Assembly (NCBI RefSeq): GCF_020551945.1
Contig: NZ_JAJBZH010000003.1
Location: forward strand, 311,294-375,293
Reading direction: 5' to 3'
Length of the DNA stretch: 64,000 nt
Origin: Cellulosimicrobium marinum
Lineage (GTDB): Bacteria > Actinomycetota > Actinomycetes > Actinomycetales > Cellulomonadaceae
Positions 7,916 to 46,756 of the stretch are shown here, piece by piece; position 1 is the stretch's first letter, and each line of letters starts with the position of its first letter. Both the position numbers and the translations under genes were made by a program. Below the pieces are notes generated by a model. It did not search any database. It was not told the DNA's origin and was given only the letters and a program-made list of their open reading frames with translations.

Positions 7916-9070
7916 GTGCCCCGACCGCGCGTCCTGCGCCCGTCCACCCCCGTCCTGCGCCGCGCCCCCGGCGAGGTGCAGCTCGGCACCGACCCGCGAT
8001 GGGCGGTGCGGCTGGTCGGGCTCGCCGAGGAGGACGAACAGCTCGTCCTCGCCCTGGGCGCCGCGGCCGGCGCCGCGCGGCACCTCCCGGACCTGCCCAC
8101 CGAGCGCGGCGCACGCCTGGAACGGCTCCTCGGGGACGCGAACGTGCTCGTCCCGCGCCCGGTACGGCGCGTCCGGAGCCCCGCACCCGGCGCCGGTGCC
8201 GCCGACCTGGCCGTGCTGGGGGCGCTGCGGCCCGACGGCGCCGGGCACCGCACGCTCGCGACGCGCGCGCGGTCCACCGTCGCCGTCGTGGGGCTCGGCA
8301 GGATCGGCGCCACGGTCGCGGTGACGCTCGCGAGCGCCGGCGTCGGGGCCGTGACCCTCCACGACCCCGCGCCCGTCCTCGTCACCGACGTCGGCGCCGG
8401 ACCGTACCGCCTGCGGGACGTCGGCACTCCCCGCGAACGTGCCCTCGCGCGCACGGTCGCGGAGGTCTCCCCCGACGTCAGGACGGCTGCGGGGACGGGG
8501 ACGAGTGCGGGAGCAGGACCGGGCTCGGCGGACGCGACGGGGACCGTGACCGGGTCGGGGACGGGGACGGGCGGGAGCGGGGTCGAGCCGCCGGACGTCG
8601 TCGTGGTCGTCGAGCACGGGTGCGCCGACCCGCAGCGCGTGCGCGAGCTCGTCGGGGACGGCGTGGCGCACCTGTCGGTCGTGGTCCGGGAGGCGGACGT
8701 CGTCGTCGGCCCGTTCGTCCGTCCCGGGACCGACCCGTGCCTCACGTGCGCGGACCTCGCCCGCGCCGAGGTGGACCCGTGCTGGCCGCAGGTCGCCCGG
8801 CAGCTGCGCGAGCAGGCGGGTGCCGGGAGCGAGGAGTCCGTCCTCGCGGCCGTCGCGGGCGCGGTCGCCGCGGGTCAGGTGCTCGCGGCGCTCGACGGGT
8901 CGACGCCGCGGACGTGCGGCGCGTTCCTCGAGGTCCCGGCCCCGGACGGCGTTCCGCGGGTGCGCGACCTCGACCGGCACCCGCGCTGCGGGTGCGGCGG
9001 GCTGACCACCGCACCCCCGGACGGGACGCGCCTCGTCCGAGGGGTGCGGCGGTCAGGCGGCGGTGGCTGA
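7916..9070 (+). CDS. ThiF/E1-like protein (TOMM leader-binding-like)
   Basis: A 384-residue protein with an N-terminal region resembling the leader-peptide-binding (RRE-like) part of TOMM cyclodehydratase partners and a central Rossmann fold of the ThiF/E1 superfamily (STVAVVGLGRIGATVAVTLA). CLTCADL and HPRCGCGG near the C-terminus look like the CxxC...CxC zinc ligands of that family. I see no ATP-adenylation Arg/Asp signature, so enzyme activity is doubtful. A Gly/Thr/Ser/Ala-rich linker (about 8,485-8,590) interrupts the fold. No azole peptide precursor or cyclodehydratase is nearby. The GTG start at 7916 is supported by GGAG 6 nt upstream. The 3' end overlaps whiB7 by 18 bases. Confidence 0.75.
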   Translation: MPRPRVLRPSTPVLRRAPGEVQLGTDPRWAVRLVGLAEEDEQLVLALGAAAGAARHLPDLPTERGARLERLLGDANVLVPRPVRRVRSPAPGAGAADLAVLGALRPDGAGHRTLATRARSTVAVVGLGRIGATVAVTLASAGVGAVTLHDPAPVLVTDVGAGPYRLRDVGTPRERALARTVAEVSPDVRTAAGTGTSAGAGPGSADATGTVTGSGTGTGGSGVEPPDVVVVVEHGCADPQRVRELVGDGVAHLSVVVREADVVVGPFVRPGTDPCLTCADLARAEVDPCWPQVARQLREQAGAGSEESVLAAVAGAVAAGQVLAALDGSTPRTCGAFLEVPAPDGVPRVRDLDRHPRCGCGGLTTAPPDGTRLVRGVRRSGGGG

Positions 9071-9475
9071 GGCGTCGGCCTGCTGCCGGGCCTCCTCCTC
9101 CTGGCGGGCGAGCACCTCGGCCTTGCTCGGGCGGCCGCGGCCCCGCTTGCGGGCGACGACGACGCCGTCCACGAAGACCTCGCCGCCCCAGACGCCCCAG
9201 GGCTCGCGACGGTCCACGGCCCCGGCGAGGCAACCCTCGACGAGCGGGCACGTGCGGCACAGCGCCTTGGCCTGCTCGACCTCGGCGGTGCGCTCCGCGA
9301 ACCACAGCTCGGGGTCGTTGCTGCGGCACGGCAGGAGACCGGCCAGGAGCCGGTCGAACTCGGCGGCGTCGTTCGCCCCCAGCGGGGCGGCGGTCGGTCG
9401 ATGAGGTGGGTGGGGTGCCCAGGGGCCGGATCCGCCCTGGGCCGTGATGTTGTCGAGCAGCGCGGTGAGCCGCAC
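9053..9475 (-). CDS. whiB7: WhiB7-type iron-sulfur transcription factor
   Basis: A 140-residue WhiB protein that activates intrinsic antibiotic-resistance genes together with the primary sigma factor. The four iron-sulfur ligands are Cys50, Cys73, Cys76 and Cys82 (CRTCPLVEGC), followed by the GVWGG turn that contacts sigma. The C-terminal basic segment KRGRGRPSK is an AT-hook, the feature that separates WhiB7 from other WhiB proteins. The neighbour uvrD2 and wider synteny match mycobacterial whiB7. The GTG start at 9475 has a GGAGG site 5 nt upstream. The 477-bp leader with uORF and terminator upstream is the expected antibiotic-sensing attenuator. The N-terminal extension before Cys50 is long. 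Confidence 0.93.
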   Translation of the reverse strand: MRLTALLDNITAQGGSGPWAPHPPHRPTAAPLGANDAAEFDRLLAGLLPCRSNDPELWFAERTAEVEQAKALCRTCPLVEGCLAGAVDRREPWGVWGGEVFVDGVVVARKRGRGRPSKAEVLARQEEEARQQADASATAA

Positions 9476-9541
9476 GATGTCCTCCAGTGATGTCCTGTCG
9501 TGGGTGTGAACGTCGTCGTCACAGGACCCTGAGGACAGCGG

Positions 9542-9560
9542 TCCCGTCCGGTGGACGGGA
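9542..9560 (-). other. Hairpin in the whiB7 leader near the start codon
   Basis: A perfect 8-bp stem (TCCCGTCC at 9560-9553, GGACGGGA at 9549-9542) with a 3-nt loop lies between the leader terminator and whiB7. A second helix can form between GTCCTGT (9527-9521) and ACAGGAC (9498-9492), just before the GGAGG site at 9485-9481. These may affect ribosome access or alternative folding; their role is inferred. Confidence 0.5.
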
Positions 9561-9596
9561 ATCGCGGGTGATCCTCATCGACAGTCGTGCTCCGGG

Positions 9597-9637
9597 AGGA
9601 ACACGAAGGCCGCGGGTCCGAGAGGGACTCCGCGGCC
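9597..9637 (-). terminator. Intrinsic terminator (attenuator) in the whiB7 leader
   Basis: GGCCGCG (9637-9631) pairs with CGCGGCC (9614-9608) and GTCC (9628-9625) with GGAC (9619-9616), around a CTCTC loop with a small bulge. A T-rich run, TTCGTGTTCCT, follows at 9607-9597. It starts 18 nt after the uORF stop and ends 120 nt before whiB7, the right place for a terminator whose formation depends on uORF translation. Confidence 0.75.
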
Positions 9638-9654
9638 TGGGAGGCGCCGGTCGG

Positions 9655-9810
9655 TCAGACCGGAGACGTCCTGGAGGCGGAGTCGGGAGCGGGGCGGGTG
9701 ACGAAGGTGCCGCCGCCATGTGCGGCTGCACGCGGACGGAGCCCTCCTGGCGTGCCCGCGTTCGCGGTCGCGAGATCCAGCAGGTGCACCATGGCGATCT
9801 GGTTCTTCAT
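9655..9810 (-). CDS. Upstream regulatory ORF (leader peptide) of whiB7
   Basis: A 51-codon ORF starting ATG at 9810 with a GGGAGAG ribosome binding site 6-7 nt upstream and ending TGA at 9657-9655. The peptide begins MKNQIAMVHLLDLATANAG and ends RTSPV. It lies between the predicted promoter and the leader terminator. In mycobacteria and Streptomyces the whiB7/wblC leader carries such a uORF, and its slowed translation under ribosome-targeting antibiotics prevents termination (established for those genera). The same mechanism is inferred here from the layout. Confidence 0.75.
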   Translation of the reverse strand: MKNQIAMVHLLDLATANAGTPGGLRPRAAAHGGGTFVTRPAPDSASRTSPV

Positions 9811-9880
9811 CAGCTCTCCCACCCCCTCTCTCCGTCGGGAGCCCGCCTCTCGGCGCGCCCCTCTCCATCAGGACTCGTCG

Positions 9881-9921
9881 ACCATATGCCGCCCCGGGAA
9901 GGGCGCACAACTTATTTCCGA
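9881..9921 (-). promoter_or_regulatory. whiB7 promoter with WhiB7-type AT-rich box
   Basis: On the minus strand an AT-rich AAATAAG directly precedes a -35 TTGTGC (9910-9905), followed after 18 nt by a -10 TATGGT (9886-9881). An AT-rich patch next to the -35 is the hallmark of WhiB7-activated promoters, read by the AT-hook, and implies autoregulation. Transcription would begin near 9874, leaving a leader of about 400 nt. Confidence 0.7.
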
Positions 9922-9952
9922 GATTTCTTTCGAGAAGTTCTCGGCGGCGCCG

Positions 9953-12010
9953 TCAGCCGTCCGCGCGGGCCACGATCTCGAGGAGCGTGGCGCCGTAGCG
10001 CTCGATCTTCGCGGGCCCCAGGCCGTTGATGCGCGCGAGCTCCGCGACGGTGCTCGGCCGGGTCTCCGCAACCGCGGCGAGCGTCGCGTCCACGAGCACC
10101 GTGAACGCCGGCTTGTCCGTCTCCTGCGCCACCTGGAGCCGCCACTCGCGCAGCCGGTCGAAGAGCGCGCGGTCGTACTCGCCCGTGAGCTGCACCCGTG
10201 CCTGGCCCGAGCGAGCGCGCCGGCCCCGCGGCGCGGCCGGGTCGTCCGGCCACAGCCCGTCCAGGAAGCGCGTCCGACGCCGCGTGGCCCGCCCGCCCGG
10301 GTTCCGCGAGCGCGCGAACGACACCTCCAGGTGCTCGCGCGCACGGGTGATCCCGACGTACAGCAGCCGACGCTCCTCGGCGACGGCCTCGTCCGTCTCC
10401 GCCAGCGAGATCGGCATGAGGCCCTCGCTCATCCCCGCGAGGAACACCGCGTCCCACTCCAGGCCCTTCGCGGCGTGCAGCGACGCGAGCGTCACGCCCT
10501 CGACCGTCGGCGCGTGCTGCGCGGCGGACCGCTCCTCCAGCTCCGCGACGAAGGACGCCACCGACGGCGGCTCCCCGCCCGCGGACGCGGCGAACGCGGC
10601 GAGGTCGTCCGCGAGCGCCACGAGGGCCTGCATCGACTCCCAGCGCTCGCGGGCGGCGCCCCGGGCGGCCGGGGGCTGCGGCGCCCAGCCCGCGGCGGCC
10701 AGCACGTCGCGCACGGAGTCCGCCATCGGCACCTCCGGGTCGGCGGACCGCGCGGCGCCGCGCAGCAGCACGACGGCGTCCCGCACCTCCTTGCGCTGGA
10801 AGAACCGTTCCCCGCCGCGTACGAGGTACCCGACGCCCGCGTCGGCGAGCGCGGCCTCGAACGCCTCGGACTGCGCGTTGGTGCGGTAGAGCACGGCGAT
10901 CTCGCTCGCGCGGGTGCCCGCGGCGAGGAGCCGCCCGACGCGTGCGGCGATCCCCGCCGCCTCGGCCTCGTCGTCGTCGTACGCGGTGTAGGACACGGGA
11001 GGGCCGGCGGGGCGCTGGGCCACGAGCTCGAGGGCCTGGTGGGCGCCGCCCGCCCGGCCCGCCCGGGCGAGGAGCTGGTTGGCGAGGTGGACCACCTGCG
11101 GCGTGGAGCGGTAGTCGCGCACGAGCCGGACGACCGTCGCGCCGGGATGGGTGCGGGAGAACGTGAGGAGGTGGTGCGGCGTCGCGCCCGTGAAGGAGTA
11201 GATGGTCTGGGACGGGTCGCCGACGACGCACAGCTCGTCGCGCCCGCCCAGCCACTGGTCGAGGACGAACTGCTGGAGCGGGGAGACGTCCTGGTACTCG
11301 TCGACGACGAAGTGGCGGTACTGGCGGCGGACCTGGTCGGCGACCGCACCCTGCGTGGCGAGCATGTCGCCGAGCATGAGGAGCACGTCCTCGAAGTCGA
11401 TGACGGAGCGTTCCGTCTTGACGTCCTCGTAGGCCGAGATGAGACGGGCCACGGTCTGGTGGTCGTACCCGGCGGGCGCGTCGCGGCCGATCGCGTCGCA
11501 GGCGCGCACGTAGTCGTCGGCCGTGACGAGCGAGACCTTCGCCCACTCCACCTCCGACGACAGGTCCCGCACCGCGACGCGGTCGACGCCCACCCCGAGC
11601 CGTCGGGCCGCCTCGGCGACCGCGGAGGCCTTGTGCTCGAGGATGCGGGGCGGCGCGCCGCCCACGACCTTCGGCCAGAAGTACCCGAGCTGGCGCAGCG
11701 CAGCCGCGTGGAACGTGCGGGCCTGCACGCCCGTCGCCCCGAGCTCGCGCAGCCGCGTGCGCATCTCCCCCGCGGCCCGCGCCGTGAACGTCACGGCGAG
11801 GACCGACGTCGGGCTGTACGCCCCGGTGCGCACGCCGTAGGCGATGCGGTGGGTGATCGCGCGCGTCTTGCCCGTGCCCGCGCCCGCGAGGACGCAGACC
11901 GGTCCGCGCAGCGCGAGGGCCACGTCGCGCTGGTCGGGGTCGAGCGCGTCGAGGATCGCGTCGGCGCTCGGGAGGACGGCGGGGCCCGGGGCGGTCGGTG
12001 CGGAAGACAT
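9953..12010 (-). CDS. uvrD2: UvrD2-type ATP-dependent DNA helicase with HRDC domain
   Basis: A 685-residue superfamily 1A helicase. Walker A AGAGTGKT is at about residue 43, motif II VVDEYQDVSPLQQ near 237, the QTIYSFTGA motif III region follows, and the C-terminal motifs V/VI (GLEWDAVFLAGMSEG, LLYVGITRA) are intact. The C-terminus is an HRDC domain (about 607-683) ending ARINGLGPAKIERYG. Mycobacterial UvrD2 joins motor and HRDC by a tetracysteine zinc motif; no cysteine is visible in the linker here. The ATG at 12010 precedes the conserved motor. It is divergent from mrx1 and upstream of whiB7, as in mycobacteria. Confidence 0.93.
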   Translation of the reverse strand: MSSAPTAPGPAVLPSADAILDALDPDQRDVALALRGPVCVLAGAGTGKTRAITHRIAYGVRTGAYSPTSVLAVTFTARAAGEMRTRLRELGATGVQARTFHAAALRQLGYFWPKVVGGAPPRILEHKASAVAEAARRLGVGVDRVAVRDLSSEVEWAKVSLVTADDYVRACDAIGRDAPAGYDHQTVARLISAYEDVKTERSVIDFEDVLLMLGDMLATQGAVADQVRRQYRHFVVDEYQDVSPLQQFVLDQWLGGRDELCVVGDPSQTIYSFTGATPHHLLTFSRTHPGATVVRLVRDYRSTPQVVHLANQLLARAGRAGGAHQALELVAQRPAGPPVSYTAYDDDEAEAAGIAARVGRLLAAGTRASEIAVLYRTNAQSEAFEAALADAGVGYLVRGGERFFQRKEVRDAVVLLRGAARSADPEVPMADSVRDVLAAAGWAPQPPAARGAARERWESMQALVALADDLAAFAASAGGEPPSVASFVAELEERSAAQHAPTVEGVTLASLHAAKGLEWDAVFLAGMSEGLMPISLAETDEAVAEERRLLYVGITRAREHLEVSFARSRNPGGRATRRRTRFLDGLWPDDPAAPRGRRARSGQARVQLTGEYDRALFDRLREWRLQVAQETDKPAFTVLVDATLAAVAETRPSTVAELARINGLGPAKIERYGATLLEIVARADG

Positions 12011-46643: not shown

Positions 46644-46752
46644 GGTGACCCGGGGCCCAGGCGAACGACCCGTCGTCTGCACAGCTCGTCGCTCCCCGGT
46701 GGTGATCCACCCTGCCCGGTCCGTGGAGGACGGGCGCGCCAGTCGCGACGGC
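46644..46752 (-). promoter_or_regulatory. ZTP (pfl) riboswitch in the glyA leader
   Basis: Read on the minus strand, GTCGCGACTGGCG (from about 46749) matches the conserved 5' half of the ZTP aptamer, ACCACCGGGGAGCGAC (about 46703-46688) the middle segment, and CGCCTGGGCCCCGG (about 46662-46649) the conserved 3' pseudoknot element. ZTP riboswitches sense the purine intermediate ZMP/ZTP and commonly precede glyA and folD (established). About 100 nt separate the aptamer from the glyA start; I see no T-run terminator, so control of translation or Rho access is likely. Confidence 0.85.
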
Positions 46753-46756
46753 CTCG

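Follow-up and report, generated by a model that had tools for sequence, protein, structure and literature searches.

A probable ribosome-sensing transcription attenuator in the whiB7 leader of Cellulosimicrobium marinum

Introduction

In actinobacteria, intrinsic resistance to antibiotics that target the ribosome is under the control of a master switch, WhiB7. On the minus strand of Cellulosimicrobium marinum, a helicase gene of the uvrD type, which includes an HRDC domain, comes to its end at 9953 and whiB7 starts at position 9475. What does the leader between the two genes do, and how? Coordinates throughout are those of the window, the whole stretch of 64,000 nucleotides that was analysed. 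The leader anatomy claimed in a preliminary description of this DNA proved real, with coordinates right within a few bases.

A mechanism for whiB7/wblC attenuation has been published for mycobacteria and Streptomyces (PMC11550727, PMC10727445, PMC4128351, PMC13393426), and sensing of general translation trouble is described for whiB7/wblC in PMC11550727, PMC10727445, PMC9618640 and PMC13393426. A literature search found no paper on Cellulosimicrobium together with whiB7.

Methods

Among named genomes, a scan located 80 loci, most of them in Cellulosimicrobium, Oerskovia, Promicromonospora, Cellulomonas, Isoptericola, Myceligenerans and Sanguibacter, which together with the window make 81 leaders of related genera. 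Excluding three whose terminator arm was not matched by pattern (L064, L077 and L081) left 78; merging identical rows gave 74 distinct leaders for pairing counts and 67 for the stop-hairpin test. These three leaders without the common-pattern arm come from Sanguibacter hominis (L064), an uncultured member of the Cellulomonadaceae (L077) and Flavimobilis (L081), and the attenuator may possibly have been lost or replaced in them. Two record names are probably wrong: the leader recorded as Sphaerisporangium cinnabarinum ATCC 31213 (L005) is nearly identical to that of Cellulosimicrobium funkei (L006), and the leader recorded as Cellulosimicrobium cellulans DE0111 (L024) resembles Cellulomonas hominis.

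The first distant set consisted of 40 leaders belonging to other families in the class, 36 of which had a terminator arm by pattern (L118, L122, L123 and L125 were dropped). A second set of 40 fresh leaders gave 36 usable ones; of those dropped (L167, L179, L180 and L190), three have hairpins of variant sequence. The 65-leader swap test combined 29 hand-chosen related leaders, the window included, with the 36 distant ones, and the 23-family test used one hand-chosen leader per family.

Results

The gene downstream of the leader is a WhiB7 orthologue, as judged from Pfam, best matches and its motif. It is one of four WhiB-type genes in the genome and, among them, the best match to 200 of 200 family genomes; identity to orthologues in near relatives reaches 88-89%. 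The protein contains RGRGRP by direct reading, which we take to be the AT-hook that is a hallmark of WhiB7.

A WhiB7-type promoter with an AT-rich box had been claimed for this leader, and it was found, with the same layout in 71 of the 81 leaders and an 18-nt spacer in 68 of these 71. It reads GGAAAT-AAG-TTGTGC-18-TATGGT, and its box matches the published GAAAWY only partly. Across the whole genome, AAATNNGTTGNNN-N18-TANNNT has a single match, at the whiB7 leader. In published WhiB7 promoters the AT-rich box lies 3 bp upstream of the -35 element and the spacer is 16-19 (PMC7157823), and the box of WhiB7/WblC targets is described at the position that it has in the window (PMC7157823, PMC10727445). 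The box of the window is thus a likely site of WhiB7 autoregulation (Table 1).

The claimed uORF of 51 codons is likewise present with a ribosome site of its own, as expected of a whiB7/wblC attenuator with its SD-led uORF in a long leader; the corresponding sites of relatives are stronger and resemble AGGAGGTG. A terminator hairpin after the uORF had also been proposed. The hairpin is there, although it stands 16 nt, not 18, past the stop codon and its tail is only moderately T-rich; a strict T-run terminator scan found no match in the leader. Its fold is strong (z -4.8, none of 200 shuffles as good). Terminator pairs were kept in 96.3% of cells across 74 distinct leaders, compared to 34-52% for slid partners, and compensatory change was seen in seven cells among related genera (0 of 500 shuffles). 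Both fold and conservation therefore indicate a Rho-independent terminator just past the uORF. The uORF stop lies just ahead of the terminator arm in 78 of the 81 leaders, and this layout recurs in most of the 80 leaders sampled in the other families of the class.

Table 1. Features of the whiB7 leader in the window, in order of transcription
Feature	Position	Strand	Remarks
AT-rich box GGAAAT, candidate WhiB7 autoregulation site	9914..9919	-	3 nt 5' of -35
-35 element TTGTGC	9905..9910	-	TTGNNN + TANNNT in 71/81 leaders
-10 element TATGGT	9881..9886	-	18-nt spacer from -35
uORF ribosome site, purine-rich	9814..9830	-	GGGAG 9820-9816, direct reading
uORF, 51 aa	9655..9810	-	ATG 9810 to TGA 9655; frame kept open in relatives
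Candidate RNA-polymerase pause element GGG CTC CGT CCG	9733..9744	-	codons 23-26; weak for the window
Antiterminator strand GACTCCGC inside uORF	9677..9684	-	exact complement of GCGGAGTC 9633-9626
Hairpin CCGGTC-TGACC-GACCGG, uORF TGA in loop	9647..9663	-	fold and swap covariation
Terminator stem-loop	9607..9638	-	-26.5 kcal/mol; 5' arm 9633-9626 (GCGGAGTC) is the antiterminator 3' strand
Terminator tail TCGTGTTCCTC, moderately T-rich	9596..9606	-	direct reading
Clade-specific element GGGTCCTG..ACGTTCA..CAGGAC	9492..9529	-	adjoins whiB7 ribosome site
whiB7	9053..9475	-	GTG start 9475; ribosome site GGAGG 9485-9481; Pfam Whib E 2.7e-15

The promoter, the uORF, the terminator and whiB7 are each present and relatives share their arrangement, which makes an attenuator by far the best reading. 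The proposal that the leader follows the whiB7/wblC plan is thus borne out, and we conclude that it is very probably a ribosome-sensing transcription attenuator of this type.

A sequence-blind hairpin search found the GGCCGCGG stem in 31 of 40 and 33 of 40 leaders of the two other-family sets. Across these (L115-L194) the stem is more uniform than pairing alone needs, and its GGCC lies outside the antiterminator. We considered GGCCGCGG as a genome-wide or trans-acting signal and rejected it: its two-arm pattern occurred at 6 sites in the organism's own genome against 8 for the reversed control, and a longer-gap pattern at 4-26 against 2-20 in 12 other genomes. As these counts are near those of the controls, the hairpin as such is not special.

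Of the switch itself, the earlier reading described the terminator only and mentioned neither an antiterminator nor a stop-codon hairpin. A comparison of uORF ends placed GACTCC at 27-33 nt ahead of the stop, and the terminator 5' arm contained GGAGTC. Since GACTCCGC in the uORF is the exact complement of that arm, the antiterminator and the terminator are mutually exclusive, and the leader thus has an antiterminator made from overlapping uORF and terminator sequence. Folded up to the terminator loop, without the 3' arm, the RNA formed the antiterminator over the stop-codon hairpin (-32.3 kcal/mol). Once the 3' arm was added, the best fold flipped to terminator plus stop hairpin (-43.2 kcal/mol), and forcing the antiterminator gave -38.6 kcal/mol, a cost of 4.6. 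The probability of the antiterminator was 0.95 before the 3' arm, and that of the terminator 0.99 after it. Because equilibrium favours the terminator, the switch must be kinetic, decided during transcription.

Is this complementarity more than chance? Taken by itself, the 8-bp complement of the window is unremarkable, equalled by 14 of 300 shuffles of the uORF end. Across 74 leaders, antiterminator pairs were kept in 94.4% of cells, compared to 28-49% for slid partners. Covariation within the related genera was weak (both sides changed in three cells; 15 of 500 shuffles) because the antiterminator is nearly invariant there. When arms were swapped among 65 leaders, own arms gave a mean of -14.23 kcal/mol and swapped ones -12.53 (0 of 5000), with 1 of 5000 for the 36 distant leaders and 87 of 5000 for the 29 related ones. 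Swaps ignore relatedness within families, a concern that is lessened, not removed, by taking one leader for each of 23 families (3 of 10000). The fresh set of 36 leaders gave 0 of 5000. Matching rewired pairs of arm and uORF in other families include GCGGAAC/GTTCCGC, CACGGAC/GTCCGTG, GGACTCC/GGAGTCC and GGACCCCA with TGGGGTCC; while the window pairs GCGGAGTC with GACTCCGC, most other families have the arm GCGGAACC with other partners. Some leaders lacked a good antiterminator by the shuffle and pairing method, for example L041, L058, L074 and L076. The parts of the switch, their conservation, mutual exclusion and covariation are all computed.

A second hairpin encloses the uORF stop codon. Its arms differ among leaders (TCTGGTC/GACCAGA, GGTCATC/GATGACC, CCGGTA/TACCGG, CCGGTG/CACCGG and others). 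In the swap test on 67 related leaders, own arms gave a mean score of 8.91 compared to 7.40 for swapped ones, the highest swapped mean in 300 being 7.99; the 23 families gave 0 of 10000 and the fresh 36 leaders 0 of 5000. Were a ribosome to reach the stop codon, it would open this hairpin and come to lie between the two antiterminator strands.

How a ribosome would set the switch was modelled by its position, folding downstream RNA only, with the terminator 3' arm absent and a footprint of +15. The antiterminator had a probability of 0.85-1.0 for an A site at codons 1-37, which fell to 0.83 at codon 38, 0.31 at codon 39 and 0 at codons 40-52. In this model, therefore, read-through follows when the ribosome stalls at any codon up to about the 38th or never starts, and termination when it reaches the end of the uORF. 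Such behaviour fits a sensor of general translation trouble.

We infer a transcription start near 9875, at a promoter which WhiB7 probably activates. A ribosome that fully translates the uORF would cover GACTCCGC and then the stop hairpin; the terminator (9638-9607) would fold and transcription would stop near 9600. If translation fails to initiate, or stalls in roughly the first 38 codons through antibiotic or starvation, GACTCCGC would stay free and pair with GCGGAGTC as this emerges, in a helix stacked on the stop-codon hairpin. The antiterminator would thereby remove the terminator 5' arm, the polymerase would continue into whiB7, and the WhiB7 made would boost its own promoter. The kinetics, the drug response, the autoregulation by WhiB7 and the link between a stalled ribosome and whiB7 induction in C. 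marinum are all inferred. As any stall in about 38 codons would suffice, no drug-specific peptide would be needed, and one uORF could serve for many drugs and for starvation.

The preliminary description had further proposed hairpins between the terminator and the whiB7 ribosome site, which proved correct only in part. The stretch past the terminator varies overall, but its last block (9529-9492) is very well kept in near relatives, with 79-100% identity to the window in seven of them compared to 59-79% for the post-terminator stretch before it. By pattern, the element occurs in 45 of the 81 leaders and in a single copy in the genome. Carriers belong to Cellulosimicrobium, Oerskovia, Promicromonospora, Isoptericola, Myceligenerans and Antribacter; the pattern had no match in Cellulomonas or in 36 other-family leaders. 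In Promicromonospora leaders GACGTTCA is present in two copies. The element might add a layer that controls translation or mRNA life, which is compatible with the attenuator and which we consider possible but rather unlikely. It is the best-kept piece of the leader and has inverted ends (GTCCTG/CAGGAC), yet its hairpin in the window is no better than shuffles (z -0.3 and z -0.2), compensatory change is almost nil, and the ribosome site is unmasked in the window fold. Isoptericola L069 folds well there (z -5.2), though the segment folded was longer. With regard to a translation attenuator, which would mask the SD of whiB7 in the off state, the fold of the last 129 nt ahead of whiB7 was somewhat better than shuffled sequence (z -2.2) and touches the SD, while a 77-nt fold gave z -0.2 and left the SD untouched. 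Its absence from Cellulomonas and the 36 others shows that the element is not part of the common attenuator, and it could equally be a DNA site.

Returning to the attenuator, what is selected in its uORF? Conservation of the uORF codons among relatives had been suggested as a check. The frame is kept, whereas peptide and codons are not. In the last 120 nt, frame 0 is open in 78 of 78 leaders, partly by construction as the uORF is defined by its stop, while stops occur in frame +1 in 22 of 78 and in frame +2 in 16 of 78. In nine close uORFs (window, L005-L011 and L022), pN/pS was 0.99 for codons 2-40 and 0.94 for codons 41-51. A GACTCC-like element was at the expected place in 68 of 78 leaders, with none by pattern in the other 10. 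It lies in frame 0 in 61 of the 68, in frame 1 in six and, as a variant, in frame 2 in one. The six frame-1 leaders (L032, L033, L048, L049, L051 and L060) are all labelled Cellulomonas and read the element as R-L-R. Given this change of frame and a pN/pS close to 1, RNA pairing rather than the peptide appears to be under selection, and the uORF seems to be selected for translation itself and for carrying RNA elements.

These results bear on the possibility of an ErmCL-like arrest peptide, in which a specific nascent chain plus drug would stall the ribosome at one fixed codon. The uORF end of near relatives reads RPAPDSA-RT-PV, and APDS-like endings occur in 49 of the 81 leaders. However, the codons for APDS fall on the very nucleotides of the antiterminator strand (TCC in 49 of 49, GAC in 47 of 49). 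Because the nucleotides are those of this strand and their frame shifts in six leaders, APDS was dropped as an arrest motif. No conserved nascent peptide of the kind expected of an ErmCL-type arrest leader was found in these uORFs; their length, moreover, varies from about 40 to more than 100 codons, and with pN/pS near 1 throughout we consider an arrest peptide very improbable.

It is hardly credible that the hairpin is a passive terminator insulating whiB7 from read-through of the uvrD-type gene, with induction by WhiB7 autoactivation only. No other single element is as strong as the terminator and the promoter, and the neighbour immediately upstream, in the same orientation, is the helicase gene; but the hairpin stands about 270 nt 3' of the promoter rather than between that gene and the promoter, and insulation needs neither the uORF frame nor the antiterminator strand nor the stop-codon hairpin, all of which are kept.

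Alongside the parts of the attenuator, some uORFs carry a nucleotide motif near their middle, CAG GGG NNN NNT NTG YCC, seen among L024-L083 and L116-L155 (for example in L082) and twice in tandem in L083. A first nucleotide pattern (23 of 114 leaders) was too loose and was discarded. A locator using amino acids only, Q-G-x-x-[LVM]-[SPRAH], matched 28 of 114 leaders. The fourth locator codon ended in T in 27 of these 28, compared to a third-position background of 12.8%, and encoded A, G, T, S or R; taking one leader per family (f1, f4, f6, f8, f12, f13, f17 and f25), T was found in 7 of 8. The locator does not match the window uORF, and many families are without the motif.

The kept letters GG-N6-T-N-T-G agree with a pause consensus of RNA polymerase, of which we take G-11 and T-3 to be part as well. 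The consensus is given as G-10 Y-1 G+1 in PMC12288461. In the fresh set the strict locator matched 3 of 36 leaders, all with T and one of them elsewhere, near the uORF end; a looser locator added matches mostly from one family. In a post hoc codon-shuffle test, GGNNNNNNTSYG occurred in 9 of 23 families compared to 2.4 expected (0 of 200); there was some enrichment of a control motif, CCNNNNNNTNYG, too (20 of 114 in the full set, 1 of 200). Inspected by eye for a hairpin or an anti-antiterminator, the motif showed no consistent pairing. We hypothesise that it is a pause site.

Discussion

On every feature that sequence can test, the whiB7 leader belongs to the published whiB7/wblC attenuator family. 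It shares with the systems described in PMC11550727, PMC10727445, PMC9618640, PMC13393426 and PMC13236596 a WhiB7-type promoter, a long leader and an SD-led uORF, together with a Rho-independent terminator and an antiterminator from overlapping uORF and terminator sequence, and differs in coming from a new group of organisms, Cellulosimicrobium and its relatives, and in the rewired sequence of its switch. An overlapping-sequence antiterminator is already stated in PMC10727445, so the principle is not new, and a class-wide antiterminator may already be found in Lee, Lee and Roe 2022 (Mol Microbiol 117:179). The stop-codon hairpin, the change of frame and the lack of peptide selection are documented in the present leaders. 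The leader is of interest mainly for the evidence of covariation, for its lack of peptide selection and for two extra elements.

The account of Mycobacterium whiB7 by Dinan et al. 2014 (PMC4128351) describes a uORF about 10 nt past the SD, a start about 350 nt upstream of whiB7 and a stem-loop with a T-rich tail past the uORF, all of which the window shares. Peptide and length of the uORF differ, and the loss of transcription after the uORF was measured there, while for the window it is predicted. For Bacillus subtilis vmlR and tlrB, PMC12288461 describes sensing of ribosome-targeting drugs by a uORF with transcription attenuation. The genes and sequences are unrelated, and the pause motif is a T-rich NusG one rather than GG-N6-TNYG-like as in whiB7 leaders. 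There a pause buys time for uORF translation, which is a hypothesis only for whiB7, and an added translation attenuation has no counterpart shown in the window leader. In Mycobacterium tuberculosis ilvB1, as presented in PMC13236596, ribosome position also selects between terminator and antiterminator; fixed codons for one set of amino acids do the sensing there, in contrast to a stretch of about 38 codons, none of them conserved, in the window.

Could the whole class Actinomycetes share one such device? Tentatively, and with somewhat less than even confidence, we suggest an ancient, frame-independent RNA device in which the peptide drifts while RNA elements co-evolve: a pair of antiterminator and terminator rewired several times through matching changes, a hairpin that always encloses the stop and, in some families, a mid-uORF pause at which the polymerase would await the ribosome. 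The pause is the boldest and least certain part, as its motif was picked out post hoc and the second set of distant leaders contributed few independent cases. Separable predictions follow from the hairpin around the stop, from the repeatedly rewired antiterminator and from the possible pause site.

The kept leader elements make the switch findable in any actinobacterial genome. Rfam holds no family for the whiB7 leader, and nothing relevant was found there even at a relaxed threshold. Elsewhere in the window, at 46648-46756 on the minus strand, Rfam identified a ZMP/ZTP riboswitch (RF01750; 49.2 bits, above the gathering score).
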